DNA from: Limimaricola hongkongensis DSM 17492
Lineage (GTDB): Bacteria > Pseudomonadota > Alphaproteobacteria > Rhodobacterales > Rhodobacteraceae
Assembly (NCBI RefSeq): GCF_000600975.2
Contig: NZ_CM002676.1
Location: 1 to 64,000, forward strand
DNA: 64,000 nucleotides
Reading direction: 5' to 3'
Shown here: positions 8,842 through 50,704 of the stretch, one piece after another
Numbering within the stretch: the stretch's first letter is position 1
Layout of the letters: each line of letters opens with the position of its first letter
Made by a program: the position numbers and the translations under genes
Notes under the pieces: generated by a model
Databases searched by the model: none
What the model was told of the DNA's origin: nothing
The model's input: only the letters and a program-made list of their open reading frames with translations

Positions 8842-8968
8842 GAAAACCACCTTTCACTGACACCAGACACAGCCAAAAAAAACGGAACGGCTGGGCCCAT
8901 TATCTACACGATTGTTCAATCCACGCCATGACAATGATGCGATATGCCGGGTGGCGGTTGAATTGCGA

Positions 8969-10200: not shown

Positions 10201-10283
10201 GCGCTGGTTTGGCCGGCACGTGTGCGCCGGGTGTGTTTGCAGTGACGGCGGTTCGGCAGGGGTGGGCCGCCGGGAGTGTGTTT

Positions 10284-27141: not shown

Positions 27142-27316
27142 CGGCCGAACACGGCTCCTCGCGGGGAGGCACACAAAACACCCCCCGACGTTAGCACCCA
27201 AGATGCGCGTTCGGCAATTCTGCAAATTCGGCGCAGCGGCAGATTGCGGGCGCGCCCGTTTGCGACAAGACTTCGCAAGACGGACCGGCATGTCGGCCGG
27301 CGAGGGGAGGGGCGCG

Positions 27317-30556: not shown

Positions 30557-30685
30557 GGGGCCTGTCGGGTCCGCGCTTTTCCTTGACGCAACGGCGTCTG
30601 ATGGTCTTCACTTTGGACTAGAGCGCAATAAGAGGCGGATTTCCAGCACCTACACGCACTATGTAGCAAAGTGATTGCAGGGTTT

Positions 30686-34061: not shown

Positions 34062-34314
34062 GCACGGGCCAGCCCCTTGCAAGTGTTGCCGAAAGGGAAA
34101 CGGCGCACGGTTCGCGCGATGATCGTGTCGCGGATGCGCCAATGGCCCGCCTTGATGTCACGACCCGGTGTCCGGGTCTCAGAAAAGGCTGGTCTGATCT
34201 TCGCGGCTCGGCGCAGACTGGTCGTCAGCAGCCCGGCGCCGCAGGCGGCGTGCCGGGCGCGCCGGGGCGTGAACTCAATCGCCTATCCCCGGGGGCAGGT
34301 GTGGGTTGCGTGAC

Positions 34315-36612
34315 ATGAACGAGACGGTAGGCAGCGTTTTCCAGCGAAACTGGGGCAAGCGGAACGGCGACGGCGATGGGGGCGGCGAGCTGGTCGTCAA
34401 TTTCACCGAGTTCTTCCGCATCCTGCGCCGCGGTCTGTGGATCATCGCGGCGTGCTTTCTGGTCGGCGGCTTCGTCAGCTATGTCATGGTCAAGCGCGTC
34501 CCGCCGACCTACACCGCCGCATCGCAGATCCTGCTGGGCAAGCAGAGCCAGGCCGACAACCTGCTGGGCGACCTGTTCGAGGGGCTGGCGCTCGATGGCA
34601 GCCAGATCCCGGGGCAGATCGCGCTGATGCAGTCGGGCCGGCTGCTGAGCCGGGTCGCCGAGCAGCTGGAGCTCGACACCCGGCCCGAATTCAATGCCGC
34701 GCTGCGGCCGGATGACGGCGAGAGCGTCCCGCTGACCGTCAGGGCCAAGAGGCTGGTTTCGCGCGCCACCGAACGGGTGATGGCGGCGCTGGGGCGGCCC
34801 GCCCAGCAGGCCGCGACGGGGGCCGCGACCGAAGGGGCGGATGCGGACAGCCCGCTCCTGCGCGCGGCCCGGGCCGAGCGGCAATCGCTGGGCGAGCAGG
34901 CCGATTACGTGGCCGGGCTCAGCTCGGGCCTGCGGGTGCGGCAGGTCGGCAACACCGCGCTGGTCGACATCTACTTCGTCTCGCCGGACCCGACCATCGC
35001 CGCCGCCGTGGTCAACAGCGTGGCCGACCAGTACATCGCCTTTCAGCTCGAGGAAAAGCTGCGCGGCACGCGCCGGATCACCGAAGGCCTGAACGAGCGG
35101 ATCGCCAGCCTGCGGCTTCAGGTCGAGGCCGCCGAGGGCACGGTGGTCGAGTTCCGCGACCGGATGCTGGGCAGCAATTCCGGCGGGACCGAGCGGTTCG
35201 AGCAGCAGATCCGCGAGCTGTCGAGCCGTCTGGTCCAGGTCAACGCCGCGCAGGCCGAGATCGACGGCAGCCTGCGCGAAATCGACCGGCTGATCGAGGA
35301 TCAGGGCCTCCTGGCCGTGATCGGCGTGCTGGAATCCGACCTGCTCGGCCAGCTCGAAGCCGAACGCGCGGCGCTGCAGATGCGCATGGCGCGCCTCGAG
35401 GAGCGGTTCGAAGCCGGCAGCCCGCGCATCGCCGAGGCCGCCGACGACGTCGCGCGGGTCGAGCAGGCGCTGGGTCAGGAAATCATGCGCCTGCGCGACC
35501 TTCTGGCCAACGAGGCCGCCGTGGCGGCGGCCAAGGCAGGCTCCATTCGCGACCAGCTGCGCAATCTCGAACAGCGGTTCCTGACCCTGTCGCAACAGCA
35601 GATCCGGCTGGGCCAGCTCGAACGCGAGGCCGAGGCAAGCCGGCTCGTCTACGAATCCTTCCTGTCCACCTTCACCCAGACCAGCGAGATCGGCAGCCTG
35701 CAGGAGGCCGATGCCCGCGTCGTGTCCTATGCGCAGCCGCCGCGGGCGCCGAGCGCGCCCAACAAGAAGGTGGCGGTGTTTCTCGGGCTCGTGGCCGGGC
35801 TGTTCGCCGGGCTGGCGCTGGTGTTCCTGCGCGCCTTCCTCGACCGCTCGATCGACAGCCCCGAAAAGCTGCGGCGCCTGCTCGGAGACGTGCCCGTCGT
35901 CGCCTCCCTGCCGAGCCTGCGGCGTTTTTTCCGCCGCGTCGACCCGGTCAGCGTCGTCAACGAAAAGGGCAGCCTCGCGCTGGCCGAAGGGGTGCGGACC
36001 CTGCGCAACACGCTGATGCTGCGGCGCACCGAGCCGGGTTGGAAGGTGGCGGTGATCTCGGCCCAGAAGAACGAGGGCAAGACCACGACATCGCTGCTGC
36101 TGGCCCATGCGGCGGTGCGCGCGGGCAAGAGCTGCATCGTGGTCGAAACCGACCTGCGCAAAAGCTCGATCGCGAAGGTGCTGGACCTGCCGACCTCGCC
36201 CGACATCGTCGACGTGCTGCTGCGGCGCGTCCCGCTCAAGGAGGCGCTGCGCAAGGACCCCAAGACCGGCGCGCATGTGCTGTCGGCCCAGCCCGACATC
36301 GCCGATCCCGCGGGGCTGCTGCTGTCGGATCGCATGACCGAGATGGTGCACGAGCTCGAGCAGCTCTTCGACCTGATCATCTTCGACACCTCGCCGCTGG
36401 TGCTGGTCAGCGACGCGCTGCCGGTGGCCCGGCTTTGCGACGACGTGGTGCTGACCGTGCGCTGGAAGCGCAGCGATACCAACGATCTGCGGGACTGCCT
36501 GTCGATGCTGCGGGTGGCGGGCGTGCCGATCACCTGCGCGGTCATGACGATGACCCGCGAACGCGAGGCGCCGCGATACTACTACCGCGAAGGCTCGGAG
36601 GCCGCGCCGTAA
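34315..36612 (+). CDS. Wzc/ExoP-like polysaccharide co-polymerase with BY-kinase domain
   Basis: A 765-residue inner membrane protein. After a short cytoplasmic N terminus comes a first helix (GLWIIAACFLVGGFVSYVMV), then a long periplasmic coiled-coil domain and a second helix (VAVFLGLVAGLFAGLALVFL), followed by the tyrosine autokinase domain. Walker A is AQKNEGKTTTS, Walker A' is VVETDLRKS (Glu in place of the usual first Asp), and Walker B is LIIFDTSPLVLV. The C terminus carries only a short Tyr cluster (YYY), fewer than in E. coli Wzc. It controls chain length and export with the ExoF-like protein. The ATG at 34315 is next to a weak site; TTG at 34306 is in frame. The 253 bases upstream appear non-coding. 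Confidence 0.93.
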   Translation: MNETVGSVFQRNWGKRNGDGDGGGELVVNFTEFFRILRRGLWIIAACFLVGGFVSYVMVKRVPPTYTAASQILLGKQSQADNLLGDLFEGLALDGSQIPGQIALMQSGRLLSRVAEQLELDTRPEFNAALRPDDGESVPLTVRAKRLVSRATERVMAALGRPAQQAATGAATEGADADSPLLRAARAERQSLGEQADYVAGLSSGLRVRQVGNTALVDIYFVSPDPTIAAAVVNSVADQYIAFQLEEKLRGTRRITEGLNERIASLRLQVEAAEGTVVEFRDRMLGSNSGGTERFEQQIRELSSRLVQVNAAQAEIDGSLREIDRLIEDQGLLAVIGVLESDLLGQLEAERAALQMRMARLEERFEAGSPRIAEAADDVARVEQALGQEIMRLRDLLANEAAVAAAKAGSIRDQLRNLEQRFLTLSQQQIRLGQLEREAEASRLVYESFLSTFTQTSEIGSLQEADARVVSYAQPPRAPSAPNKKVAVFLGLVAGLFAGLALVFLRAFLDRSIDSPEKLRRLLGDVPVVASLPSLRRFFRRVDPVSVVNEKGSLALAEGVRTLRNTLMLRRTEPGWKVAVISAQKNEGKTTTSLLLAHAAVRAGKSCIVVETDLRKSSIAKVLDLPTSPDIVDVLLRRVPLKEALRKDPKTGAHVLSAQPDIADPAGLLLSDRMTEMVHELEQLFDLIIFDTSPLVLVSDALPVARLCDDVVLTVRWKRSDTNDLRDCLSMLRVAGVPITCAVMTMTREREAPRYYYREGSEAAP

Positions 36613-37496
36613 TGCTCGGCTTCGGGCAGGGCGATGCACCCGGCGCAGACCCCGGCATGCATCGCCCCGCGCAGCGACCAGTAGTTGCGCCGTTCGCGGT
36701 GCGCGACGCAGGCCAGCGCCATGCCGCCGCACAGCAATGTCTTGGCCATCGCCTTGCCGCCAAGCGCCAGCCGGCTTGAAAGGGTCGGCGCCGAGCTGAC
36801 ATAGCTCTGCCCCATCCGGAACCGGCGCCGGCGCAGCCAATCGAAGCTCAGCCGGTTCTCGGGCACCGCTTCGCGCACGATCGCCGCGTCGCAGATCTCG
36901 AACCGCGCCCCGGCGCGGCCCAGCCGAAAGAAGAACTCGGTGTCCTCGCCGCCCGAACGCCCGCGCGCGATGTCGAAGCGTTCGGCCTGCCACGGCGTGT
37001 TGCGCCAGCGCAGCAGCGCGTTGCCGGTCAGCCCGGTCTCCACCCGGCCCCGGCGGCGCTGCGGCCGGCTCGAATGGTAATCGCGCGCCCGGATCCAGCC
37101 GGGCGTGCCGGGCGGGTAATCGGCCAGAACCGGCCCGAACACCCCGTCCACCTGCGCGCGCTCGGCGGTTTCGAGCAACGCCACCAGCCAGCCCGGCTCG
37201 ACATATTCGTCATCGTCGAGCAGCGCGATCCAATCCGCATCCGCCGCGTCCAGACAGGCGTTGCGGGCGATGGAGATGTTGCGGCGGGGGGCATGGACAT
37301 AGCTGACCGGGAACGGATGCCCGGCGGCCGCCGTCTCGACCACCTCGCGGGCGCTGGGGGTGTCGTCATTGTCCACCACGACGATCCGCAGCCGCGTGTC
37401 GGGCGGCGGCGTGCAGGCGGCGACGGAAGCGAGCGTCCGCGTCACGTCGGGCCGGCGAAAGGTGCAAATCAGAATGTCGACGCTGCGCTTGGTCAC
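36582..37496 (-). CDS. Glycosyltransferase family 2 (ExoM-like)
   Basis: A 304-residue GT-A protein. SVDILICTFRRPDVTRTLAS and IVVVDNDDTP open the fold, WIALLDDDEYVEPGWL gives the DxD-like cluster, and GEDTEFFFRLG supplies the base motif. This pattern is that of the ExoM/ExoO type in succinoglycan synthesis. The GTG at 37496 follows AGGAGG with six-base spacing and overlaps the stop of the next gene (GTGA), so I prefer it to the TTG at 37523. The 3' end overlaps the convergent Wzc gene by 31 bases. Two hydrophobic segments near the C terminus suggest membrane attachment. Confidence 0.87.
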   Translation of the reverse strand: MTKRSVDILICTFRRPDVTRTLASVAACTPPPDTRLRIVVVDNDDTPSAREVVETAAAGHPFPVSYVHAPRRNISIARNACLDAADADWIALLDDDEYVEPGWLVALLETAERAQVDGVFGPVLADYPPGTPGWIRARDYHSSRPQRRRGRVETGLTGNALLRWRNTPWQAERFDIARGRSGGEDTEFFFRLGRAGARFEICDAAIVREAVPENRLSFDWLRRRRFRMGQSYVSSAPTLSSRLALGGKAMAKTLLCGGMALACVAHRERRNYWSLRGAMHAGVCAGCIALPEAEHYGAASEPSR

Positions 37497-38527
37497 CGGC
37501 GTCCTCCTCTTAGCAATTGCCAAAAGACCCCCGCGCCCCAGCCGTTATGGATCAGCGCGAGCGCCAAACCGGCCCAGATCCCGCACGCCGAACCCAGGCG
37601 CAGCATGGCCGTCACCGACACGGCCACGAGCAGCGCGAGATAAAGCGCGGGGAGGGCGAGAAACGCGGGCGCGACCGGCGCGAGCGCCACGCACAGCGCC
37701 AGTGCCGCGAGGTTCGCCGCCGGCAAAACCTGGCGAAACCGCGGCCGCAGCCGGTGCTTGCGCAGCGTCCGGGCCCGGCCACGGCCATAATTCCAGTACT
37801 GGCGCAGCAAGGCGCGCGGCGTCGGCCGCATGCGGTACCCGACCCGGATGCCCGCATCGAGCCAGATCTTTCCGCCCGACAGGCCCAGCCGGTGATCGAG
37901 CTCGGCATCCTCGTTGTGGCTGAAGCTTTCGTCATAGCCGCCGACGCCGCGAAACGCGTCGATCCGAAACCCGGCATGATGCCCGTGATCGACCCACATC
38001 GACCGCTGCCCGCCGCGATGCGCCGACCCCCCGGAGCCGAGCCGCGTGTCCACCACCCAGGCCGCCGCGCGCTGAAAGCAGGTCGCACCGGTGGCGTCCA
38101 TCGGCGTCGCGAGGGCGACGGCGTCGGGCCGCGCGGCCAGCGCGGCGACGACGGCGCGGACATAGCCGGGCGGGTAGGTCGCATGCGCGTCGCAGCGCAC
38201 AAGGAACCGGGTGCGCGGCGTGGCCAGCCGGGCCACGGCGTTGATCGCGGCCGATTGCAACCGGCCGGGATTGTCGATCAGGCGAAGCGTCGGCCAGCGC
38301 CGCCCCAGACGGGTGACGATCGAGACGGTGGCATCGGTGCTGCCGCCATCGGCCACCACCAGGGCCACGTCGCGCATCCACGGATCCGAAAACAGCGAGG
38401 CCAGGCAGTCATCGACATGATCCGCCTCGTTCAGCGTCGGCACCGCGACGAGGACGGTCTCGGGGTCGGGCGCGGGGGGCGGGCCGACAGCGTCGGCTTC
38501 CCGCCATGACGGATCCATCCTGCCCAT
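37493..38527 (-). CDS. Glycosyltransferase family 2 (ExoA-like) with membrane helices
   Basis: A 344-residue GT2 protein. VLVAVPTLNEADHVDDCLAS, LVVADGGSTDATVSIV and FLVRCDAHATYPPGYVRAVV show the ExoA branch, in which the donor motif reads D-A-H. NEDAELDHRL gives the base motif, and WNYGRGRARTLRKHRLRPR is the ExoA-type basic region. Three hydrophobic helices follow. ExoA adds an early glucose in succinoglycan. The ATG at 38527 has GAGG at 8 bases; a TTG at 38554 and an ATG at 38518 are alternatives. It is coupled to the ExoM-like gene, matching the exoA-exoM logic of rhizobial loci. Confidence 0.88.
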   Translation of the reverse strand: MGRMDPSWREADAVGPPPAPDPETVLVAVPTLNEADHVDDCLASLFSDPWMRDVALVVADGGSTDATVSIVTRLGRRWPTLRLIDNPGRLQSAAINAVARLATPRTRFLVRCDAHATYPPGYVRAVVAALAARPDAVALATPMDATGATCFQRAAAWVVDTRLGSGGSAHRGGQRSMWVDHGHHAGFRIDAFRGVGGYDESFSHNEDAELDHRLGLSGGKIWLDAGIRVGYRMRPTPRALLRQYWNYGRGRARTLRKHRLRPRFRQVLPAANLAALALCVALAPVAPAFLALPALYLALLVAVSVTAMLRLGSACGIWAGLALALIHNGWGAGVFWQLLRGGRR

Positions 38528-38621
38528 GAACCAACCTCGTTCCACACATGTCAAACCACGCGGTCAGGATGGCACGGTACGGCGCCAAAGTCATCGCCTT
38601 GCTGAGAGCGCCCAGACGAAA

Positions 38622-38691: not shown

Positions 38692-41600
38692 TCAGAAGAT
38701 CAGGGCATCCGCGTCGAGCAGGCTTTGCAGCGTCAGGTCGCCGCCGTTGCGCAGAAGGGCGATGTCCTTGAAATCGTCGCCACCGCCATTGGCGTCGACC
38801 GCCAGATAGGCCTTGTTGTGGACCCCGCGGACCTCGACATAGTCGCCGATGTTCTCCGCCGTGGCGCCCTGCAGCAGGTCCGACAGGTCGAACCGGTCCT
38901 CCTGCTCGGACACGAAGTCGAGGATGAAGTCCCGCCCGGTGCCGATGTCGTCGGCCCCGTAGTAGAACGTGTCAGCCCCCGCGCCGCCGACGAGAATGTC
39001 GGCACCGGCGCCGCCATCGAGCCAGTCGTCCCCGCCATAGCCGAACAGCCGGTCGACGCCACCCATGCCGGACAGCACATCCGTCCCGGCGCCACCCGTG
39101 AGCCGCTCCTCGCCCGCGCTGCCGGTCTGCGTCGGCGCCGGGCCGGTCGTCGGGGCAGGCGTGGGCGCAGGCGCCGGTGCGGGCTCGGCCACGTCATCGG
39201 TCGGCGCCTGCACGGGATCGTCGTCCGTATCGTCCTGCACCGGCGCGCCGCCCTTCACCGTCAGAAGGCCGTCGGCCATCAGGTCGGACACGGTGAGCGC
39301 GGCCCCGTCGGAAATCATCGCGACCGTCTTGAAATCGCCGTCGCCATTCGAGGTTTCGAGCATGCCATAGCTGCCATTGGCGGTGATCCGCACATGCGAC
39401 GCGACATCCGCCATGTCGAAGGCATTCGAGACGTTGACCAGTTCGATCGAGTCGCGCCCGGCCACCGAGAAATCGAGCAACTGGTCCGTGCCCTTATGCG
39501 TGACGTCGAGCACGAAGCGATCCGCGCCGTCCTCACCGAACAGACGGTCCGAGCCGCCGCCGCCGACGATCCGGTCGGCCCCGTCGCCGCCGCGGAGCAC
39601 GTCCTTGCCAGCGCCACCGCGCAGCGTGTCATCGCCGCCGGCCCCCATGAGCAGGTCGCGCCCGCCCTTGCCGATGATCAGGTCATCCCCGGTCTTGCCG
39701 GTCAGCACGTTGTTGCTGGCGTTGCCCCGAAGCTCGCGCAGGTCGCCAGACGACGCCGGCAGGTCCGGGGTGTCGTCGATCTCGGGTTCGGGCTCGGGTT
39801 TGGGCTCGGGCTTGGGCGCGGGATCCTCGACCTCGGTGCTGCCACCCGTGTCGGTCGGCATCTCCATGCCGTCATCCATGCCGTCATCCGTGCCCGAACC
39901 GGAACCGGGCATGTGGTGACCGTGACCGCCGCCGTGATCCTCGTCATCCGTCGCGCCGGGCTTGCCATCGCCGACCTTCTCCCACGCGTGGAGATAGCCG
40001 GTGTTGTTGATCGCCGGCGGCGTCCAGCCGGGCATCTCGTAGCCCTTGAGATAGGAGGTCTCGAAGCCTTCGAGCTCGATCTCGATGACGACCGGGTGGT
40101 TGTCGCCGGTCAGGCGGTCGGTGACCCAATGCACCACCGGTGCCACCCACGCGCCGTCGGATTTCTGGATCGTGCCATGGATGTCGAGAAACTCGTCGAC
40201 GAAGAATTCCTTGCGCAGCACGCCCCCGCCGTTGAGCGTGGCGTCGATGCCTTCGAAGTCCTTGCTGGCGCCGCTGCCGTCGTAATTCGCCGCCTGCACG
40301 TATTCGTTGAAGCGGCGCTCACCGAGGCTGTCGATGGTCTTGCCGTGGATGGAGACCGAATTGTCACCGGGGCTCAGGGTCAGGTCGGCGTCGCCATCGG
40401 CGATGAAGCGCACCTTGTCGACCTGCTTGAGCGAGGCGCTGTCGTACATCTTCGGCTCGGGATTGTCGTAATCGAGGCCGTACTTGTTGCGGTACTCCGA
40501 CTTGACCTTGCCCGCGGTTCCGCCATCGGCGGCGAACAGAAGGTCGAGCTGGTCGAAGGTCTGGCCGACATTCTTGAGCTTGACGTCGATCATCGCCGAT
40601 TCATGGTTGATGCCGGTGGATTTCCACGCGGTGTCGTAATCGACGATCTCGACATTGTTCAGAACCACGGAAGAGGTCTTGCGCTCGATGCTGAGCGCCG
40701 GGCCGGAATCGCCCATCCAGACCGAGTCCTTGTAGAAGTAGTTCGACGAATAGTTGCCCTGGTCCACGGCCTGGCCGCCGCCCCAGATGTCGAAATCCCG
40801 GATCACGCTCATCAGGTCGGTGTCGTCGGAATCGGCGCGGTGGAAGATCCGCATGCCAAGATCGCTGGCGATGACCGAGTTGCCGTCGAAGTCCTCGAGC
40901 GAGGGCTCGTGATGGCTGATCGCCTCGTCGAAGGGCGAGGGGTCGAATTTGAGCTGGTCGCGATCATGCATCTTGGCGGCCATGCCGTCGCGGGACGCGG
41001 AGACGAGATCCTCGGGCTGCAGGTTCCAGCCGATCTTGGAGTTGGCGGCGATGTTGTCCTGCTGCACGATGATGCGCGACTGGTTCTCGTAGGCGGTGCC
41101 GTCATTGCCCGCCTTGTCGGCGCTGTCGTGGCCGCGGATCGAGGTGACGAGGTTGCCTTCCCAGACGCCGTCCTCGTCGCCGCGCTCCGACACGATGCCG
41201 GCATTGCGCACGTCGAAGACGATGTTGTCCGAGATGACGGCGTTGCTCTGGTGCTGGACGATGCCCCAGCCCTTGCCGCCATTGACGGCGTTGCCGTCGA
41301 GCAGCGAATGGGCCGCGTCGTTGCCGGTCCCGGTCTGGTGCAGGTGCAGCGAGTAGCGGCCGATCGGGTTGTCGGCGCCGTTCGAGCCGTTGAACTCGGT
41401 GCGGCCGAGATCCTCGAACTCGGCATGACGGACCGAGTTGGCGTAGGCCTTGCCGCCAAGGTCGCTGTTGTGCAGCATGACGTGGCCGCGCACCCCGTCG
41501 GGGTTTTCGGAGGCGAGGGTCACGTTGCGCGACAGGTTGCCGACATAGGTTTCGAAATCATAGCCCTGCGGCGCCTGGTGGTTGTAGGCCAGCGGCTTGT

Positions 41601-42249
41601 CGAAGGCGATGCTGTTGCCGTCGACCGCGGTGATCACCCGCTCCTCGTCCTGGGTGCGCAGCTCGCCCGCGCCGTTCTTGCCCATGCGCGAGGTGCCGAC
41701 CACGAGGATCGTGTCGCCGACCTTCCAGTTCGACAGGTCGCCATCGACCTTGACGCTCGTGGCACCGGCCTTGGCGCCGTCGGTCAGCGACAGGTAGCTC
41801 TCCTTCGCGGCGCCCTCGATGTCGACCCGGCCAAAGGCGACGAGACCATGGTCGATCTTGTTCCCGGTTTCGAGAGGGGTGTCGCGGAAGGTGACGTTGG
41901 CGTTGACATTGGCGGCCACGGCCTTGCCCGCCGCGCCGATTTCCAGATGCGAGCCCGGCGCGGTCGCGATGGTTTCGACCAGCATGTTGGTGTCGCGGTC
42001 GGTCGCCCATTTCAGATCGCCGTCGACACGCACCGTGCCCAGCGAGACAGCCGAGTTCGAATCGTAGGTCACGGCAACATCGGCGGGAATGAAGACATCC
42101 GCGTCATTGCCCGGAACCTTGCCACCTTCCCAGACATTGAGGTCGGTCCACGCCCCGTTCTTGACGGCGGTATGCGTGGCCTTGGCGGGCGTAAGGATGG
42201 TGTCGAGCATGGCGAGCATGTCGCCGTGATCATGTCCTTGGTTCATCAT
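38692..42249 (-). CDS. Giant G8-domain, parallel beta-helix, RTX protein
   Basis: A 1185-residue protein without signal peptide. Residues about 25-150 match a G8 domain (GAWTDLNVWEGGKVPG, VRVDGDLKW and regular Gly residues), followed by repeating short beta-strand turns (about 250-560) of a right-handed beta-helix, such as HQSNAVISDNIVFDVRNAGIV. A His/Asp/Glu-rich linker (HGGGHGHHM) and a Pro-Glu repeat precede two RTX blocks (about 840-915 and 1047-1100) whose nonapeptides read GGxGxDxLxG. The C terminus ends in DADALIF, as in type I secreted proteins. Animal CEMIP and TMEM2, with the same G8-plus-beta-helix layout, depolymerise hyaluronan. A glycan-binding or glycan-cleaving role is inferred. 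Confidence 0.86.
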   Translation of the reverse strand: MMNQGHDHGDMLAMLDTILTPAKATHTAVKNGAWTDLNVWEGGKVPGNDADVFIPADVAVTYDSNSAVSLGTVRVDGDLKWATDRDTNMLVETIATAPGSHLEIGAAGKAVAANVNANVTFRDTPLETGNKIDHGLVAFGRVDIEGAAKESYLSLTDGAKAGATSVKVDGDLSNWKVGDTILVVGTSRMGKNGAGELRTQDEERVITAVDGNSIAFDKPLAYNHQAPQGYDFETYVGNLSRNVTLASENPDGVRGHVMLHNSDLGGKAYANSVRHAEFEDLGRTEFNGSNGADNPIGRYSLHLHQTGTGNDAAHSLLDGNAVNGGKGWGIVQHQSNAVISDNIVFDVRNAGIVSERGDEDGVWEGNLVTSIRGHDSADKAGNDGTAYENQSRIIVQQDNIAANSKIGWNLQPEDLVSASRDGMAAKMHDRDQLKFDPSPFDEAISHHEPSLEDFDGNSVIASDLGMRIFHRADSDDTDLMSVIRDFDIWGGGQAVDQGNYSSNYFYKDSVWMGDSGPALSIERKTSSVVLNNVEIVDYDTAWKSTGINHESAMIDVKLKNVGQTFDQLDLLFAADGGTAGKVKSEYRNKYGLDYDNPEPKMYDSASLKQVDKVRFIADGDADLTLSPGDNSVSIHGKTIDSLGERRFNEYVQAANYDGSGASKDFEGIDATLNGGGVLRKEFFVDEFLDIHGTIQKSDGAWVAPVVHWVTDRLTGDNHPVVIEIELEGFETSYLKGYEMPGWTPPAINNTGYLHAWEKVGDGKPGATDDEDHGGGHGHHMPGSGSGTDDGMDDGMEMPTDTGGSTEVEDPAPKPEPKPEPEPEIDDTPDLPASSGDLRELRGNASNNVLTGKTGDDLIIGKGGRDLLMGAGGDDTLRGGAGKDVLRGGDGADRIVGGGGSDRLFGEDGADRFVLDVTHKGTDQLLDFSVAGRDSIELVNVSNAFDMADVASHVRITANGSYGMLETSNGDGDFKTVAMISDGAALTVSDLMADGLLTVKGGAPVQDDTDDDPVQAPTDDVAEPAPAPAPTPAPTTGPAPTQTGSAGEERLTGGAGTDVLSGMGGVDRLFGYGGDDWLDGGAGADILVGGAGADTFYYGADDIGTGRDFILDFVSEQEDRFDLSDLLQGATAENIGDYVEVRGVHNKAYLAVDANGGGDDFKDIALLRNGGDLTLQSLLDADALIF

Positions 42250-42873: not shown

Positions 42874-44199
42874 TCAGGAAGGCAACCGGTCGACGGGCCG
42901 GATCGGCCGCCCCCGATCCGCGAGCCGCAGCGGACGGGACACCGGGGGGCGGGGCGTCTGGCTGCGCATCCGGGCGGCGATGGCCGTCAGGGCGCCGATC
43001 CAGAACAGCATCTGCAACAGCACGAAGGGGCGCATGAAGTCGCTTTCGGTCAGGCCCCGGACCAGCGTCGCCGCCCATATGCACAAAAAGAAGACCTGCG
43101 GCATCGCGGCCGAGACCAGCGCCCTTCGCCAGATCCAGACCGTGACCCAGGCGATGCCCGCCAGCAGAAAGCCGACCCCGACCAGCCCCTGATGCACCGC
43201 GATCTCGTAATAGCTGTTGTGGAACTGGAACTGCGCATAGGGGCCCTTGTGGAACTCCTCGTAGATGCGGCGCACCAGTGGCGAGGCCTGGTAGCGCCAG
43301 AACCCGCCCATCCCGACGCCGAGCATCGGTTGTTCCTCGATCTGCTCCTCGGCGTAATGCCAAAGCAGGGTGCGCCCGGTCAGGGTCTTGTCCTTGCCGA
43401 ATTTCGACAGCACCTCGCCCGCGAGGTCGCCCTGATAGACCGGCACGACCTGGCTGGCGATGCCGCTCGCGGTCGCGATGGTCGCGCAGAGCAGCGCGAT
43501 CCGGCTGGCCCGCAGCAGGCCGCCGCGCAGGATCAGCGCGCCGCTGATGCAGATCGCCCCGAGCGCGATCGCAAGCAGCATCGCGGTGGCCGAATTGCTG
43601 TGCGCCACGAGATACAGCGCGATCGGCGCCAGCCCCGCCCCCGCGAGCCGTAGCCGCCATCCCGACCCGGTGTCGAGCAGCACCGCAAGCGACACCAGCC
43701 AGAGCACGACCATGTTGCTGCCGAGGATGTTCTTGTGGACGAACACCGCCGTCAGCATGTTGCCGGTCGCGATCCCGAGCACGAGGTTCAACAACCCGAT
43801 CGCACCGGTGGCCAGGAACACCGCGTACAGAATGCGCCGGGCATCGAGCGTCGCGGCGATGTAGACGCAGATCACGTTGGTCAGCAGCAGATAGGTCGCC
43901 CCCTTGGCCGCCTCGATCGGCATGATGGCCCAGAAGACGGTGAGATAGCACCACAGCGGGAACAGCATGATCGGCCAGGCGCGCAACGCGAGCGGCACCG
44001 TCCGGTCGCGTTTCTGCCAAGCCATCACCGCGTAATAGAGCGCGAGCGGATAGAGCAGCAGCTCGTCATTGTCGAACTGGACGAAGGTGACGCCGACCCA
44101 GAGCGTGAACAGCACGAACTCGATCCGGTCGACCCGCAACACCAGGCGCCGGTCGTCCGGGTCGCCATGGGAAAACAGGCCTTCGATCGATCTGGACAT
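42874..44199 (-). CDS. O-antigen ligase/ExoQ-like EPS polymerase (Wzy type)
   Basis: A 441-residue integral membrane protein with about eleven helices. Its large periplasmic loop contains LTGRTLLWHYAEEQIEEQP, GVGMGGFWRY and FHNSYYEIAVHQGLVGVG, which are the Wzy_C/O-antigen-ligase motifs: the Arg in LTGR and the His/Asn in HNSY. This fits an EPS repeat-unit polymerase, as ExoQ is in succinoglycan. The ATG at 44199 precedes a soluble N terminus (SRSIEGLFSHGDPDD); longer frames upstream run antisense to the next gene. It is divergent from the PHP-like gene across about 200 bases. Confidence 0.9.
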   Translation of the reverse strand: MSRSIEGLFSHGDPDDRRLVLRVDRIEFVLFTLWVGVTFVQFDNDELLLYPLALYYAVMAWQKRDRTVPLALRAWPIMLFPLWCYLTVFWAIMPIEAAKGATYLLLTNVICVYIAATLDARRILYAVFLATGAIGLLNLVLGIATGNMLTAVFVHKNILGSNMVVLWLVSLAVLLDTGSGWRLRLAGAGLAPIALYLVAHSNSATAMLLAIALGAICISGALILRGGLLRASRIALLCATIATASGIASQVVPVYQGDLAGEVLSKFGKDKTLTGRTLLWHYAEEQIEEQPMLGVGMGGFWRYQASPLVRRIYEEFHKGPYAQFQFHNSYYEIAVHQGLVGVGFLLAGIAWVTVWIWRRALVSAAMPQVFFLCIWAATLVRGLTESDFMRPFVLLQMLFWIGALTAIAARMRSQTPRPPVSRPLRLADRGRPIRPVDRLPS

Positions 44200-44400
44200 C
44201 ACCACACTCGCAACCGGCACCTTTCCCCTGTCTACAGGACCCCATCTCACCGGTCGAGCGACCGCGGTGCGAAACCGATCGTTTCCGCCGCCTGCGCGCT
44301 TTATTTGTCGAGGATTGCGACTATCCTGACCGGGCCGACCCTCTCCCGGCCAAGGCAAGGGACGGGTTGGCGGTTTCCGAGTGCAGGTGGTTGCCGTTTC

Positions 44401-45168
44401 ATGCTCATCGACGCCCATGTCCATATTCACCCCGGTTTCGACCGGGCGGTTTTTCTGCAAAGCGCGGCCGACAACCTCGCAAGGGCCGGCGCCGCGCGCG
44501 GCCACCCGCCCGCGCCGGGTGGCCTGATCCTCACCGAGATACCGGGCGCGGACGTGTTCGACGCCTTTGCCGCCGGGCGGGGCCTGCCGCGGGGATGGCG
44601 CGCGCAGGCGCCGTCGCAGGACCCCGAGGCGCTTTGGCTGCAAGGCCCGGAGGGGCGCGAGCTGCTTCTCGTCTCGGGCCGGCAATTCGTGAGCGCCGAG
44701 GGGCTCGAAATCCTCGCGGTCGGCGGCCGGCCCGAAGGTCTGGGCGGGCAGCCGGCGGCAGAGATCCTGGCACGGCTGGGCGGCATGGGCCTGCCGGCGG
44801 TGCTGCCATGGGGCGCGGGCAAATGGATCGGCGAACGCGGCCGGGTGCTGCGCGCACTGCTCGACGCGGCGGCCCGGCCCGGCGTGCTGCTCGGGGACAA
44901 TGCCGGGCGGCCCTTCGGCTGGCCGAAACCGGGCTGCTTTCGCGGTGGCCCGCCGGTCTTGCCCGGCACCGATCCTTTGCCGATCGCGGCGGCGGCGCAG
45001 GATGCGGGCCGCTATGGCGTCGTCTGCGACCAACCGCTCCCGCGCGCCCGGCCCGCGGCCGCGCTGCGCGACTGGCTGCTGCGGCTGACCGTCCAGCCGC
45101 CCGTGTTCGGGCGGCGCTGCGGCCCGGTGGCCTTCGCGCATCGCCAAGTCATGCTGCGGGCCGGCTGA
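44401..45168 (+). CDS. PHP/amidohydrolase-like protein, function unknown
   Basis: A 255-residue protein. The N-terminal LIDAHVHIHPGFD gives an HxH metal-binding pair typical of PHP and amidohydrolase folds, and LLGDNAGRPFGWPKPG near residue 165 could hold further ligands. I recognise no subfamily. The ATG at 44401 begins exactly at the HxH segment, without a strong ribosome site. The GlpD-like gene starts 5 bases after its stop, so the two are coupled. A role in making a sugar or glycerol precursor is guessed only from its neighbours. Confidence 0.62.
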   Translation: MLIDAHVHIHPGFDRAVFLQSAADNLARAGAARGHPPAPGGLILTEIPGADVFDAFAAGRGLPRGWRAQAPSQDPEALWLQGPEGRELLLVSGRQFVSAEGLEILAVGGRPEGLGGQPAAEILARLGGMGLPAVLPWGAGKWIGERGRVLRALLDAAARPGVLLGDNAGRPFGWPKPGCFRGGPPVLPGTDPLPIAAAAQDAGRYGVVCDQPLPRARPAAALRDWLLRLTVQPPVFGRRCGPVAFAHRQVMLRAG

Positions 45169-45172
45169 TCCG

Positions 45173-46720
45173 ATGTGGCGCGCCTCGTTGCCCGATCTCG
45201 CCGCCGCCCGCTACGACGTGCTGGTCATCGGTGGCGGCATCTACGGCGCCATGGCCGCGCGCGAGGCGGCGCTGCGCGGGCTGCGCACCGCCCTTGTCGA
45301 GCGCGACGATTTCGGCGGCGGCACATCGCATAATTCGCTCAAGACCATCCATGGCGGCATCCGCTACGTGCAGCATCTCGATTTCGCGCGGCTGCGCGCC
45401 TCGGCGCGCGAGCGGACCTTCTGGCTGCGCGCGGCACCCGATCTGGTCCGGCCGCTCGAATTCGCGATCCCGCTGGTCGGCCACGGCCTGCGCGGGCCCG
45501 GCGCCTTCGCCGCCGTCGCGGCGCTGTACGGGCTGGGCTCCGCCGGGACGAAGGGGCGCGGCTGGCCGGGCGCGCGGGTGGTCGGGCGCCGCCGGGCCGC
45601 CGCGCTTCTGGGGGATCTCGCGCCCGGCGGGCTGACCGGGGCGGGGCTCTGGTGCGACGGGCAGGTGAGCGACACCAACAGGCTGCTGCTCGCCACCCTG
45701 CGGGCCGCGACCGCATCGGGCGCAGACATCGCCAATTACGTCGAGGCCGAGACGCTGATCGGCGCGCGGGGGCGGGTTGTCGGGGCGCGGCTGCGCGACC
45801 GGATCGATGGCGGGCAGGCCGAGATCCGCGCCCGCGTCACGCTGTGCTGCGCCGGGCCCGCGACCGGGGCGCTGGCCGGGGCGCTTCTGGGCGACGCGGC
45901 GCGCGCGCGCTTTCCGCGTTTCGCGCGGGCGATGAACCTCGTGCTCGACCGGCCCGCCGGGGCGCGCGCGCTCGGCGTGATCAGCCGGGCGCAGGCGGAT
46001 GCCGTGCTCGACCGCGGCGGGCGGATGTATTTCCTGGTGCCGTGGCAGGGGCGGATGATGATCGGCACCCACGAGGCCCCGCATCGCGACGACGCCCCCG
46101 GCGACGCCCCTGGCGATGACCGGGCCGACAGCGCCGCGTTCCTCGCGGCGATCGACGCCGTCTGCCCGGAGCTCGCGCTCGGTCCCGGTGACGTGCTGCA
46201 TGTCCATCGCGGCCTGATCCCCGCCGATGCCGACGATGCGCGCAGCGCCGTGCAGCGCCAGACCCGCGGCACGCTGATCGACCATCGCCATGCCGACGGC
46301 ACCGCCGGGCTGATCAGCTGCGTCGGCGTCAAATACACCACCGCGCGGCTGGTGGCCGAGCGGATGCTCGGGCTGGCGCAGTCCCAGCTCGGGGCCGACC
46401 GGGCCGGTCCCGTGGGCATTCCTGCGCGCGAGGGCGCGTGGCGCAGCTTTGCCACGCCGCTGCCGGTGACGCCCTGCGACCCGGTCGATCCGGCCGATCC
46501 CGGCGCGCTGGCGGCGCGGATAAGGGCCGCGATGCGCGAGGAAATGGCGATGTCGCTCGACGACGTGCTGTGGCGGCGCTGCCTGCTGGGCGAAACCGGG
46601 GCGCTGCGGGGGGCGGGGGGGGACGCGCTCTGGCGGCGGGCCGAACGTATCGCCGCGCCGCTGGGCCTGCCGAACCGGATCCTGCCACCTGTCGAAACGG
46701 CTGGCGCGCGGCGGGTGTAA
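45173..46720 (+). CDS. GlpD-like FAD-dependent oxidoreductase
   Basis: A 515-residue protein related to aerobic glycerol-3-phosphate dehydrogenase. YDVLVIGGGIYGAMAAREAAL is the FAD-binding Rossmann motif. ERDDFGGGTSHNSLKTIHGGIRYV is the flavin-contacting and substrate region, the GlpD pattern (S-S/H-N, H-G-G-I/L-R-Y). CVGVKYTTARLVAERM is the second FAD contact. Its position between a PHP-like and a UDP-sulfoquinovose synthase gene is unusual for a housekeeping GlpD. In this context it may oxidise a glycerol-phosphate or a sugar-like alcohol for EPS decoration. A 104-base gap with a palindrome separates it from sqdB. Confidence 0.8.
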   Translation: MWRASLPDLAAARYDVLVIGGGIYGAMAAREAALRGLRTALVERDDFGGGTSHNSLKTIHGGIRYVQHLDFARLRASARERTFWLRAAPDLVRPLEFAIPLVGHGLRGPGAFAAVAALYGLGSAGTKGRGWPGARVVGRRRAAALLGDLAPGGLTGAGLWCDGQVSDTNRLLLATLRAATASGADIANYVEAETLIGARGRVVGARLRDRIDGGQAEIRARVTLCCAGPATGALAGALLGDAARARFPRFARAMNLVLDRPAGARALGVISRAQADAVLDRGGRMYFLVPWQGRMMIGTHEAPHRDDAPGDAPGDDRADSAAFLAAIDAVCPELALGPGDVLHVHRGLIPADADDARSAVQRQTRGTLIDHRHADGTAGLISCVGVKYTTARLVAERMLGLAQSQLGADRAGPVGIPAREGAWRSFATPLPVTPCDPVDPADPGALAARIRAAMREEMAMSLDDVLWRRCLLGETGALRGAGGDALWRRAERIAAPLGLPNRILPPVETAGARRV

Positions 46721-46824: not shown

Positions 46825-48039
46825 TTGGAAACGAGTGAAATCACCGATTTCGGGACTGGCGGCGGCCTTGCCGGGGCATCCGTGCTCGTGCTGGGGGGCG
46901 ACGGCTTTTGCGGATGGCCCATGGCGCTGCGTTTTTCGCGGCTGGGCGCGCGGGTGACGCTGCTCGACAACGGCTCCCGGCGCGAGATCGACAAGCGCCT
47001 CGGCACCGCCTCGCTGACCCGGATCCGCAGCCTGCCGGAGCGGCTCGGCGCGTGGCACGACCGGACCGGGCGGCGCATCCGGAGCCACGACATCGACCTC
47101 GCGGAAAACTATGCCGCGCTGCGCGCGCTTTTGTCCGATTGCCGTCCCGACATCATCGTCCATTTCGCCGAACAGCGCTCCGCGCCCTATTCGATGATGT
47201 CCTCCGAGGCCGGGCGCTACACGGTCGACAACAATCTCAGGGCCACGCACAACATCCTGAGCGCCATCGCCGAGAGCGGCATCGACCCGCATCTGGTGCA
47301 TCTGGGCTCGCTCGGCGTCTATGGCTATTGCAGCGCCGGGCTGCGGCTTCCCGAAGGCTACCTGCCGGTGACCGCCACCGGCCCCGACGGGCGCGAGGTG
47401 CGCAAGGAGGTGCTGTTCCCCGGCGAGCCGGATTCGATCTACCACATGACCAAGGCGCTCGATCAGCAGCTCTTTGCCTTTCACGCGCGGTTTCACGGGC
47501 TCAGGGTAACCGACCTGCACCAGGGCGTGGTCTGGGGCACCCAGACCGCCGAGACCCGGATCGACCCGCGGCTGGTCAACCGTTTCGACCATGACAGGCT
47601 CTATGGCACGGTGGTCAATCGCTTCATGATACAGGGGATCACGGGGCAGCCATTGTCGGTCTATGGAAGCGGCACGCAAAGGCGCGGCTTCATCCATATC
47701 GAGGACATGCTACGCTGCATTGCCTATGCCACGCGGACGCCGCCGAACCGGGGCGACCGCGTGCGGGTCATCAACCAGGTCGCCGAAACCTGCAGCGTCG
47801 ACCATATCGCGGCGCTCGTCTCGGCGCAGACCGGCGTGCCGATCAGCCATGTCGACAACCCGCGCCGCGAGCCCGAGGGCAACGAGCTCGACGTCGACAC
47901 CTCGACCCTGCGCGGCATCGGCTTCACGCCGCGCCTGTTCGAGACCGCGCTCGGCCCGGAGATCGAGGATGTGCAGGCCCTGCTGGCCCCGCCCGCCGAG
48001 ACCACCGGCCCCGCGGCCAGAGCCGTCACAGCGCCCTGA
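46825..48039 (+). CDS. sqdB: UDP-sulfoquinovose synthase homologue
   Basis: A 404-residue extended SDR. VLVLGGDGFCGWPMALRF is the NAD-binding motif with the D-G-F/Y-C-G-W signature of SQD1/SqdB. The SqdB signature FAEQRSAPYSMM is at residues 114-125. GSLGVYGY gives Ser162 where SQD1 has its active-site Thr, and IYHMTKALD gives Tyr206 and Lys210. DLHQGVVWG is also characteristic. SqdB uses UDP-glucose and sulfite to make UDP-sulfoquinovose. The TTG at 46825 is taken as start, with GGGGG about 10 bases upstream; no better ATG is in frame. The 3' end overlaps the convergent GT4-like gene by 14 bases. The donor may be used by an EPS transferase instead of a sulfolipid synthase. Confidence 0.88.
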   Translation: METSEITDFGTGGGLAGASVLVLGGDGFCGWPMALRFSRLGARVTLLDNGSRREIDKRLGTASLTRIRSLPERLGAWHDRTGRRIRSHDIDLAENYAALRALLSDCRPDIIVHFAEQRSAPYSMMSSEAGRYTVDNNLRATHNILSAIAESGIDPHLVHLGSLGVYGYCSAGLRLPEGYLPVTATGPDGREVRKEVLFPGEPDSIYHMTKALDQQLFAFHARFHGLRVTDLHQGVVWGTQTAETRIDPRLVNRFDHDRLYGTVVNRFMIQGITGQPLSVYGSGTQRRGFIHIEDMLRCIAYATRTPPNRGDRVRVINQVAETCSVDHIAALVSAQTGVPISHVDNPRREPEGNELDVDTSTLRGIGFTPRLFETALGPEIEDVQALLAPPAETTGPAARAVTAP

Positions 48040-49216
48040 TGGCGTCCAGAAGCGCGCGCGTCTCGCGCCCGTCCTCGAGAAACAGCGCGTCGCGCCGCGC
48101 CATGATGTCCTGCCGCTCGGCGCGGTAGCGCGCGGGGTCCATCTCTTCGAGAAAATCGGCGATCGCGTCGGCATAGGGCGGCGCGAAGGCGTGGCCGACA
48201 CCGGCCTCGCCGAGCCAGCGGTCCATCTCCGTGCCCGCCATCACCAGAGGCACGGCGCCGTAATAGCCCCCCTGATACACCCGGCAGGCGCGCAGCAATT
48301 GCGAATTGCCATGCTCGTCGAGCATGTCGAGACACCATGAGAAATGCACCCGGCCATACATCGTCTCGAGATCGTCGGGGATGCTGTATTCGCCGTCATG
48401 CACCCAGTTGGGATGGCGATCGACGATCCGCATATAGGCGTCGAGCCCGGTTTCGGTCGGGTAGCCGCGGGTATAGATCTCCACCTTCGGCCCGAGCCGT
48501 TCGGCAATGCGTTCGAGCAGCGCCATGCTCTTGGGACAGCGCAGGGTGCCGAACCAGCCGATGACCCAGCGGTCGGTGATCTCCTCCCAGACCCGGCCCG
48601 CCGGCGTGGCAAGCCCGCGCCGCTCGCCCGGCTGGATCTTGTTCTCGAGCACGAAGCTCGGGCCGCCATAGGCCAGCACCGGCTCGTAGAACCCGCGCAG
48701 GAAACCGGGCGAAAGCGGCACCAGAAGGTCGATGCGGCGCAGCACCCATCGCTCGATCGCGCGAAACAGCGCGCCCACGACATCGTCGCGGAAATACACC
48801 GCCTGGATGTCCTCCACCTCGTAGACGATCTTCGCGCGGCTGCCCGACACCCATTTGGCAAAGAGCGCCAGGACGAGCAGGTCGATCTGCCGGGCATAGA
48901 TCGCGTCGACCCGGCGAAACCGCGCGCGATGCCGCGACAGCCGGACGGCGGCCCGGGCAAGCCGCGACAGGCGGCGCAGGTAATTGCGGTCGACCGTCTC
49001 GCCGAGATGGGTGTTGGGCCAGTCCGGCTGGTAGTCGACATTGTATTTCCGGCGGCGGAAGGTGAAGGCATCGACCGCCGCGCCACCACGCATGAAGGAC
49101 CGGATGCGCAGGATCAGGGTGGGGTTGGTCGCATCGCCCCCCAGCACCGCGATCCGGAGCGGTGACGCGGGCGCCGCCGCCGTCGTCTCAAAGCTGCTGT
49201 CGATCCGCGACTTCAT
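48026..49216 (-). CDS. GT4-like glycosyltransferase (paralogue of 27317)
   Basis: A 396-residue GT-B protein. RIAVLGGDATNPTLILRIRS and DAFTFRRRKYN match the N terminus of the protein at 27317, and IGWFGTLRCPKSMALLERI matches its donor region. At the conserved catalytic position of the donor domain it has VYQGGYYGAVPLV, Gln where the paralogue has Glu. The ATG at 49216 has AAGGA 5 bases upstream. It is probably co-transcribed with the Wzx gene, which ends 63 bases upstream. A role with UDP-sulfoquinovose is possible because of the convergent overlap with sqdB, but cannot be shown. Confidence 0.8.
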   Translation of the reverse strand: MKSRIDSSFETTAAAPASPLRIAVLGGDATNPTLILRIRSFMRGGAAVDAFTFRRRKYNVDYQPDWPNTHLGETVDRNYLRRLSRLARAAVRLSRHRARFRRVDAIYARQIDLLVLALFAKWVSGSRAKIVYEVEDIQAVYFRDDVVGALFRAIERWVLRRIDLLVPLSPGFLRGFYEPVLAYGGPSFVLENKIQPGERRGLATPAGRVWEEITDRWVIGWFGTLRCPKSMALLERIAERLGPKVEIYTRGYPTETGLDAYMRIVDRHPNWVHDGEYSIPDDLETMYGRVHFSWCLDMLDEHGNSQLLRACRVYQGGYYGAVPLVMAGTEMDRWLGEAGVGHAFAPPYADAIADFLEEMDPARYRAERQDIMARRDALFLEDGRETRALLDAIRAL

Positions 49217-49279
49217 GATCGTCCTTTCGCCTTCGGGCGGTGCCGTTCCGGCCAGCGGGCGCGCCCGGCCATCCATCTC

Positions 49280-50704
49280 TCAGGCCATTCCGGCTCTGAG
49301 CGCGGCATAGCTGTCGCGCAGCCGCCCCCGCGAGATCAGCAGGATCGCCGCCCACACCAGCAACAGCAGCACCGGCGCCAGCCCCAGCTGGCCCCATTCC
49401 CCGAGCCCGAGGCTGCGCGACAGGCCGCGTTGCAGCGCAAATCCCGCCATGGAGAGGAGCACCGGCCAGCACAGCAGCGCCATGATGTCGGCCAGCCCGA
49501 CATCGAAGGCGCGGCGCATGAAGACGGCCATGCGCGGCAGAAAGACGATGAACCAGACCGAACGCGCCGCCACCAGCGCGACCGCCCCGAACGACGCGGC
49601 CAGCGGCAGCATCAAGAGCCACAGCACCGCCATCTCGGTGGTGACGCGCAATCGCAGGTCGGTGCGGCCCTGCGCCATGAAGGCGGTGCCGTTCGGGGAA
49701 AGCGCGATCTGCAGCGCAAAGCCCGGCGCCAGCAGGGTGAACAGCAGCCCGACATCGCTCCATTGCTCCGAAAGAAGCAGCACGAAGACCGGTTCGCTCG
49801 CCGCCGCGAGCAGGGCGATCGGCGGAATGACGATCACCGCCAGAAGACCGCTGGCCTGCAGGAACAGGTCGCGGACCGCGCCGGGCGTCGCGTGCTGCGC
49901 CGCCATGCGGACATAGACCACGCGCGACACCGGGTCGCTGATGACGGTCGAGGGCACCCGCAAGAAACGCATCGCCATGGCAAAGGCCCCGAGCTGGGCC
50001 ATGGTGCCGACGAAGCCGATCACCAGCCGCAGCGATTCCCGGATCACGAATTGCAGCATCGCCCAGCCCAGCGTGTCGGAGCCGAACTTCAGATGCGCGC
50101 CGAGCGCATGGCGCGAGAAGGTCACGCGCGGACGGAAGGTGGAGCCGAGCACGTACCAGACGGCCTGCACGGCAAAGAGCGTGACCTGCTGGGCGATCAG
50201 CGCCCATGCGCCGGCGCCGTTCATGGCCAGCCCGATCGCCACCCCGGCGCTGAGCACGCTCGACAGCACGAGGGCAAGCGCCAGCGGCAGGAAGGCGTGG
50301 CGGGATTCGAGCTCGGCCACGAAGACCGCCGAGATGCTTTGCAGCACGGGCACCAGCGCCAGGACCGACAGGAAACGGGCCAGCCGGGGGGCATCGTAGA
50401 GCAAGGCGACGAAGGGCGCGGCGGCGAGCACGCACAGCCCGAGCACGAGACCGAAGCCGCACAGCATCCAGAAGGCGCTGGACCAGACCAGATCGTCGCG
50501 CCCGCCATCGCGCAGCAGCGACTTGCCGAGACCGGCATCGCTCAGCGCCATCGCCAGCCCGACGAAGACCATCGACAGCGCGACGAGACCGAATTCGGCG
50601 GGCGGGACATAGCGCGCCACGACCGGCAGGGTCGCCAGTTGCAGCGCCACCGCAAAGACCCGGGCCCCTGACAGGGAAACGACGCTACCTGCGAAAGCCG
50701 GCAT
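49280..50704 (-). CDS. Wzx-type lipid-linked oligosaccharide flippase
   Basis: A 474-residue membrane protein with about twelve to fourteen helices in the MOP/polysaccharide-flippase (WzxC) layout. The N terminus GSVVSLSGARVFAVALQLAT, YVPPAEFGLVALSMVFVGL, and the central YVRMAAQHATPGAVRDLFL are typical. It should move the lipid-linked repeat unit across the inner membrane for the ExoQ-like polymerase. The ATG at 50704 is the first in frame. CGAAACG at 50709-50715, just upstream, matches the motif cluster at 20129. It is the last EPS gene before a 550-base gap. Confidence 0.9.
   Translation of the reverse strand: MPAFAGSVVSLSGARVFAVALQLATLPVVARYVPPAEFGLVALSMVFVGLAMALSDAGLGKSLLRDGGRDDLVWSSAFWMLCGFGLVLGLCVLAAAPFVALLYDAPRLARFLSVLALVPVLQSISAVFVAELESRHAFLPLALALVLSSVLSAGVAIGLAMNGAGAWALIAQQVTLFAVQAVWYVLGSTFRPRVTFSRHALGAHLKFGSDTLGWAMLQFVIRESLRLVIGFVGTMAQLGAFAMAMRFLRVPSTVISDPVSRVVYVRMAAQHATPGAVRDLFLQASGLLAVIVIPPIALLAAASEPVFVLLLSEQWSDVGLLFTLLAPGFALQIALSPNGTAFMAQGRTDLRLRVTTEMAVLWLLMLPLAASFGAVALVAARSVWFIVFLPRMAVFMRRAFDVGLADIMALLCWPVLLSMAGFALQRGLSRSLGLGEWGQLGLAPVLLLLVWAAILLISRGRLRDSYAALRAGMA

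Follow-up and report, generated by a model that had tools for sequence, protein, structure and literature searches.

The first 64 kb of contig C2 of Limimaricola hongkongensis DSM 17492 (hereafter the window) carries an exopolysaccharide (EPS) locus, and within this locus lies a gene for a UDP-sulfoquinovose synthase-like protein that we call SqdB2. Comparison of sequences and gene neighborhoods leads us to consider it fairly probable that SqdB2 and the product of the adjoining GT4-type glycosyltransferase gene (hereafter GT4), a putative sulfoquinovosyltransferase, supply an exopolysaccharide, with separate genes for sulfolipid on contig C7. The enzyme family is known; it is the predicted genomic role that is new. 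Use in polysaccharide rather than in sulfolipid had been proposed in an earlier sequence-only reading of the window, and this proposal is supported by the second SqdB on C7, by the placement of the two copies in separate clades, by an EPS context in 3 of 5 other SqdB2 loci, and by the presence of GT4 in all 5.

Two types of SqdB in one genome

The SqdB2 open reading frame (ORF) comprises 404 codons without interruption and begins with a TTG codon, with the purine-rich GGGGGAAA immediately 5' of it. In a search of the Protein Data Bank (PDB) at E ≤ 1e-10, the sole match of SqdB2 was Arabidopsis SQD1 (1i24 and 1i2b, 4e-75; 1qrr, 2e-74), and the homology spans SqdB2 residues 17 to 375 (4e-75), giving a full-length match to a characterized enzyme. 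The protein is therefore the SqdB/SQD1 homologue that the sequence-only reading had taken it to be, and the motifs quoted there (FAEQRSAPYSM, YHMTK, and DGFCGW) are all present. Both SqdB2 (303.8 bits) and the canonical copy on C7 (332.5 bits) fall short of the 575-bit cut-off of the NCBIfam model NF041015; since the sulfolipid-type copy of the same genome also fails, we rejected this miss as proof of a non-SqdB identity. Apart from one motif and a model cut-off that is too strict, all criteria place SqdB2, by its sequence, in the UDP-sulfoquinovose synthase family. SqdB2 does not belong to an sqdBDC operon, its adjoining genes encoding an FAD oxidoreductase, GT4, Wzx, and Wzy, without a GT8-type SqdD or an SqdC. 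The 14-bp overlap with the convergent GT4 gene and the nearness of a polymerase and a Wzx flippase agree with the earlier description, in which the GlpD-like FAD gene separating the Wzy_C polymerase from SqdB2 went unmentioned; sqdC and sqdD types are missing beside SqdB2, as stated there, yet both are found elsewhere in the genome.

The sequence-only reading had pointed to the rest of the genome as the place to look for a second sqdB and for sqdC and sqdD, and all three are located on C7. The second SqdB (C7:301488-302594), which shares 50% identity with SqdB2, is followed by a GT8 glycosyltransferase (SqdD) and then by an NAD-epimerase-fold protein (SqdC); in sqdBDC operons, SqdD resembles GT8 enzymes and SqdC is a reductase. 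SqdB2 is thus not the only SqdB of the genome, and the objection that a lone copy would raise falls away. The C7 gene order is that of the Rhodobacter sphaeroides sqdBDC operon, in which deletion of sqdB is reported to cause loss of sulfoquinovosyldiacylglycerol (SQDG) (PMC11346425). Sulfolipid synthesis would accordingly depend on its own set of genes, sqdB-SqdD-SqdC on C7.

The two copies are also separated in phylogeny. The tree covers SqdB matches with retrieved loci (the family search alone gave 83 matches, 30 of them with loci; SqdB loci from later searches lie outside it). After 17 duplicates were dropped, 54 distinct SqdB sequences remained, from which the partial L010 was left out and to which SQD1 was added, giving 54 rows. 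With bootstrap values that had not fully settled, SqdB2 of the window groups with the proteins of Limimaricola litoreus (L005), Poseidonocella (L006), Allosediminivita (L007, genome G258), G228 (L014), and G219 (L015) in a clade supported at 100/97, and the C7 SqdB is placed in a 21-row sulfolipid clade at 100/100. Both clades persist after removal of four long branches. In the comparison with lipid-linked SqdB that the sequence-only reading had envisaged, SqdB2 thus stands outside the sulfolipid clade.

The clades were also compared with the distribution of SqdD. In a family sample of 295 genomes (SqdB at E ≤ 1e-60, SqdD homologue at E ≤ 1e-30), SqdB was found in 73 genomes and SqdD in 46; the counts given here are lower bounds because few candidates were scored per genome. 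Forty-four genomes have both, 29 have SqdB alone, and 2 (G053 and G159) have SqdD alone; among the 44, the two genes are widely separated on the contig in G080, and the SqdD reading of G291 is interrupted by a stop codon, at a distance of 2 kb from SqdB. All 17 sulfolipid-clade rows from sampled genomes are accompanied by SqdD, and the other 4 rows, all from plasmid records, have a GT8 or glycosyltransferase gene adjoining SqdB. For the other non-SqdB2 clades, SqdD is present in only 2 of 16 genomes (G025 and G066), both of which also have a sulfolipid-clade copy (rows L008, L009, L067, L073, and L077 are outside this count). Since 29 of the 73 sqdB genomes gave no SqdD match, the gene by itself is an unreliable guide to sulfolipid; in a 2024 study of Rhodobacter, the presence of sqdB had been used to infer SQDG in other species (PMC11346425). 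In addition, SqdB is probably under-annotated in Proteobacteria, since both copies of this genome score far under the NF041015 cut-off and 18 of 22 plasmid SqdB matches are labelled only NAD-dependent epimerase/dehydratase.

The GT4 partner of SqdB2

Orthologues of GT4 (E ≤ 1e-90) occur in 4 of the 295 family genomes (G000, G219, G228, and G258), and SqdB2 at 58% identity or more is confined to the same four; the SqdB match that comes next has 54%. With the window included, all 6 SqdB2 loci have the SqdB2-GT4 pair; the two genes are convergent and touch, or almost touch, in 5 of them, and in Limimaricola litoreus they lie on one strand 5.2 kb apart. An EPS locus with several genes in common surrounds the pair in 4 of the 6 loci, three of which also have the GlpD-like gene, and in G228 a sulfotransferase gene directly adjoins GT4. 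SqdD is present in 5 of the 6 SqdB2 genomes; the exception is G228, which has SqdB2 in its EPS locus together with another non-sulfolipid SqdB and gave no SqdD match. In G219, a gene for a GH16 and RTX protein also directly adjoins GT4 (L053 11925-16310); parts of this protein match positions 5680-8850 of the window, and it may be an EPS depolymerase.

On the basis of its co-occurrence with SqdB2, GT4 is a candidate sulfoquinovosyltransferase. A predicted model of moderate quality (pLDDT 62, pTM 0.61) resembles the GT-B UDP-sugar enzymes BshA, MshA, and HepE, with TM-scores near 0.5. As a source of SqdX, Leptolyngbya contig L010 was tried and rejected; the gene after SqdB is unlike a glycosyltransferase, and from its translation we take it to encode a TrmFO-type FAD protein.

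The module is rare: an order-level draw of 390 genomes yielded only the GT4 orthologue of the window itself (1/390), the other three carriers not being among the matches of this draw. Within the genus, SqdB2 is found in 2 of 8 genomes and an SqdB at ~50% identity to SqdB2 in all 8, so the SqdB2 locus is accessory. Among the 22 records of a plasmid collection with SqdB at E ≤ 1e-40, none reaches 60% identity.

The polysaccharide locus and its interpretation

From ~10 to 51 kb, the window contains Wza- and Wzc-like genes, at least seven GT2 genes, two AT3-SGNH acyltransferase genes, and two sulfotransferase genes (Table 1). A flippase, a polymerase, export/co-polymerase proteins, and several glycosyltransferases thus occur together, as expected of a Wzx/Wzy-dependent EPS locus. 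Relatives of the sulfotransferase nearer to SqdB2 (28503-29345) are present in the EPS loci of Limimaricola litoreus and G228.

Table 1. Features of the window around SqdB2
Feature	Position	Strand	Basis or remark
SqdB2, UDP-sulfoquinovose synthase-like SDR enzyme, 404 aa	46825-48039	+	PDB search, clade, motifs
GT4-type glycosyltransferase, candidate sulfoquinovosyltransferase	48026-49276	-	Pfam Glyco_trans_4_4 below gathering score; co-occurrence with SqdB2; GT-B/GT4 fold
GlpD-like FAD-dependent oxidoreductase	45173-46720	+	Best PDB match glycerol-3-phosphate dehydrogenase, 1.3e-34
Wzy/O-antigen-ligase-type polymerase	42874-45147	-	Pfam Wzy_C 1e-14
Wzx-type flippase	49280-50704	-	Pfam Polysacc_synt_3 3.8e-59
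Large RTX/G8/beta-helix protein	38692-42249	-	Homologues in EPS loci of relatives L053, G297
GT2 glycosyltransferase	37493-38554	-	
GT2 glycosyltransferase	36582-37523	-	
Wzc-like chain-length/export protein	34306-36612	+	GNVR domain
Protein without Pfam match at 1e-8	33084-34061	+	Homologues in EPS loci of G228 (51%), G297 (49%)
GT2 glycosyltransferase	32096-33103	+	
Wza-like polysaccharide export protein	30671-31975	+	Pfam Poly_export
GT2 glycosyltransferase	29342-30556	-	
Sulfotransferase	28503-29345	-	Pfam Sulfotransfer_3 4.1e-18
GT4 paralogue, 36% identity to GT4 partner	27113-28486	+	No Pfam match at 1e-8
GT2 glycosyltransferase	24542-25567	-	
AT3-SGNH acyltransferase	20478-22493	+	
GT2 glycosyltransferase	19150-20109	+	
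GT2 glycosyltransferase	17327-18682	-	
Second sulfotransferase	15251-16168	-	Pfam Sulfotransfer_3 8.8e-27
AT3-SGNH acyltransferase	11573-13567	+	
Glycosyltransferase, group 1/GT4-like	10209-11576	+	

Contig C2 has 103,367 bases and an exact 110-base terminal repeat. One of its ORFs is ParA-like, with a partial match to a plasmid ATPase, and two others we take, by eye, to be ParB-like and DnaA-like initiator genes; queries with RepA and Rep3 were without match. Because of the terminal repeat and these ORFs, C2 is regarded as probably a circular plasmid, and the EPS locus is then probably plasmid-borne.

In the reading that we favor, SqdB2 would be a UDP-sulfoquinovose synthase that works for a surface polysaccharide only, and the co-occurrence of the two genes suggests that the convergent GT4 would transfer sulfoquinovose to a lipid-linked repeat unit or to a side branch. 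Judging from domain content, the repeat unit would be flipped by Wzx, polymerized by Wzy, and exported by the Wza/Wzc-type proteins. Sulfate esters would probably be introduced by the two sulfotransferases of the locus, in which case the polymer may contain sulfur both as C-bound sulfonate and as O-bound sulfate.

Several observations weigh against this polysaccharide role. No 3'-phosphoadenosine-5'-phosphosulfate (PAPS) reductase domain was found in the EPS locus, the single match of the genome being on contig C5. Two of the six SqdB2 loci (Allosediminivita L007/L051 and Poseidonocella L006) show no polysaccharide genes nearby: the seven L007 neighbors that were scanned with Pfam, all lying inside 10 kb, include no polysaccharide gene (they encode TRAP transporter parts, a cytochrome peroxidase, a pyridine nucleotide-disulphide oxidoreductase, a VTT-domain protein, a histidine kinase, and a PP-loop ATPase), tblastn of the window genes against L007/L051 found only GT4 and its paralogue, and L006 is an 8.5-kb contig only, with a transposase gene. 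Wzx homologues at 37 to 38% identity are present elsewhere in the L006 and L007 genomes. A more distant relative of GT4 (33%) is found in a locus of EPS type, and no SqdB is seen in the 17 kb of it that are annotated. Finally, the approximately unbiased (AU) test did not reject a group made up of SqdB2 and the sulfolipid clade (p 0.166, the group having been chosen after inspection of the tree), so the two may be sisters. The loci without EPS genes and the AU result would suit an SqdB2-GT4 pair that makes a sulfoquinovosyl lipid or a small glycoside, that is, a second sulfolipid route whose placement in an EPS locus is incidental. SQD2 and SqdX, of plants and cyanobacteria, are themselves GT4 enzymes, and GT4 would act like them in such a route; the GlpD-like gene adjoining in 3 of 6 loci points the same way. 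We nevertheless judge this route unlikely, since 5 of the 6 SqdB2 genomes already possess a canonical SqdD, the 36% paralogue of GT4 resides within the same EPS locus, a GT4 relative adjoins a sulfotransferase in a Leisingera EPS-type locus, and 4 of the 6 pairs sit among polysaccharide export and GT2 genes. That SqdB2 serves as a spare for sulfolipid synthesis, or is a plasmid copy in decay, as could be supposed of a protein of the same enzyme family in a genome already equipped with a sulfolipid operon, is very unlikely in view of the intact ORF, its clade-wide conservation with a fixed glycosyltransferase partner, and the presence of SqdB2 in G228, where SqdD gave no match.

The last objection comes from the active site. 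The position of SQD1 Met146 (Agl3 Met145) is occupied by Ile or Leu in 6 of 6 SqdB2 rows, compared with 0 of 21 sulfolipid-clade rows and 3 of 24 other rows (L010, L067, L077, and SQD1 were set aside from this count), and the [ST]MG given as the enzyme motif in a review (PMC8987622) is replaced by [ST][IL]G in all six. For Agl3, full activity is reported for T144A and inactivity for H95A, R101A, M145A, Y182A, and K186A, and the enzyme yields UDP-glucose-5,6-ene when sulfite is absent (PMC4388408). SqdB2 might thus make a different nucleotide sugar, through another nucleoside diphosphate-hexose substrate, another C6 nucleophile, or release of the 5,6-ene itself. This appears quite unlikely to us, because the exchange of Met for Ile or Leu is conservative, Ile also occurs in L008, L009, and L073, all outside the SqdB2 clade, and the equivalents of SQD1 R101, Y149, Y182, and K186 are retained in 6 of 6 SqdB2 rows of the alignment. 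The Met replacement, conservative and clade-defining, is more meaningful than Ser162, for which the sequence-only reading had proposed altered kinetics relative to the Thr of SQD1. The Ser is indeed there, but the kinetic effect is not borne out, given the full activity of T144A Agl3 and the presence of Ser before the Met146 site in only 3 of 6 clade members (Thr in the other 3).

Sulfoquinovose outside sulfolipid

SqdB2, as read here, shares features with several known systems. The SqdB of alphaproteobacterial sqdBDC operons is of the same family, with ~50% identity and the same catalytic Tyr/Lys and Arg, whereas SqdB2 falls in a separate clade, has Met146 replaced, and is found without adjoining SqdD or SqdC in an EPS locus with GT4. 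Arabidopsis SQD1, although the only PDB match, is a plant sulfolipid enzyme in which Thr145 (PMC4388408) is followed by Met-Gly-Glu-Tyr; SqdB2 has Ser-Leu-Gly-Val-Tyr. Agl3 of Sulfolobus acidocaldarius is likewise a UDP-sulfoquinovose synthase serving glycoconjugates instead of lipid (PMC4388408), but its product is an archaeal N-glycan on protein, with no Wzx/Wzy polysaccharide, and Agl3 itself lies outside our tree. The capsule locus of Vibrio sp. KMM 8419 resembles the window in its sulfotransferases and in a GT4 labelled with a "sulfoquinovosyl transferase" domain, whereas its polymer is described as sulfated and this GT4 is proposed to transfer modified rhamnose; the available text of that description names no UDP-sulfoquinovose synthase (PMC11641403). 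For Shark Bay mats, a figure legend of a 2025 metagenome paper names SQD in connection with the monosaccharides that EPS is predicted to contain, but this is a pathway prediction for cyanobacterial metagenome-assembled genomes, and its available text gives no EPS-locus placement or sugar analysis (PMC12555021). Of the precedents found, the Vibrio and Shark Bay cases come closest, and neither available text places sulfoquinovose in the polymer. Reviews, as far as their available text goes, locate sulfoquinovose in sulfolipid and archaeal glycoproteins; in Sulfolobus it is described on glycoproteins, not in polysaccharide (PMC9549778), and the sqdB of Haloquadratum was interpreted as a sulfolipid gene (PMC1544339). 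The available texts of PMC6030368 and PMC7922415 mention sulfoquinovose in their reference lists only, and among the matches listed from a mostly open-access literature, represented by titles and the beginnings of abstracts, no report places it in a bacterial polysaccharide.

Other SqdB lineages are also found in glycan-type clusters. On plasmids of Pelagovum pacificum (L072 6971-8877) and Rhodobacteraceae M382 (L075 6971-10734), both of the same order as Limimaricola, SqdB lies beside or close to a PAPS reductase gene, with a sulfotransferase gene between the two in M382, and glycosyltransferase genes are nearby; unlike SqdB2, these proteins belong to a different clade, keep the Met, and have DUF4422/GT8 or other glycosyltransferases in place of GT4. 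In G066, SqdB adjoins a UDP-galactopyranose mutase gene, with a PAPS reductase ~4 kb off; in G105 it is flanked by a Rep3 gene and a Wzc-like gene, and on an Agrobacterium plasmid it lies amid glycosyltransferases. The SqdB lineage of L071, L054, L058, L060, and L064 has a GT2 protein of ~600 aa nearby, which is common to a Rhodococcus plasmid and four Rhodobacteraceae-family loci (36 to 39% identity); on the Rhodococcus plasmid, a 639-aa protein without a Pfam match at 1e-6 is encoded between SqdB and GT2. Given these contexts, glycan use of SqdB seems to be recurrent.

We see about an even chance that marine Rhodobacteraceae repeatedly build sulfoquinovose into sulfonated EPS, with at least three SqdB lineages other than the sulfolipid one (SqdB2, with GT4; one with PAPS reductase and DUF4422/GT8; one with the large GT2) serving surface glycans, partly plasmid-borne and sometimes with their own sulfite-producing reductase. 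If so, bacterial slime would be an overlooked source of sulfoquinovose, and the presence of sqdB alone would not mark sulfolipid producers, which counsels caution in using the gene in that way. Sulfonated bacterial EPS, if it exists, would widen the chemical range of exopolysaccharides by one class and give a major environmental sulfonate a new source.
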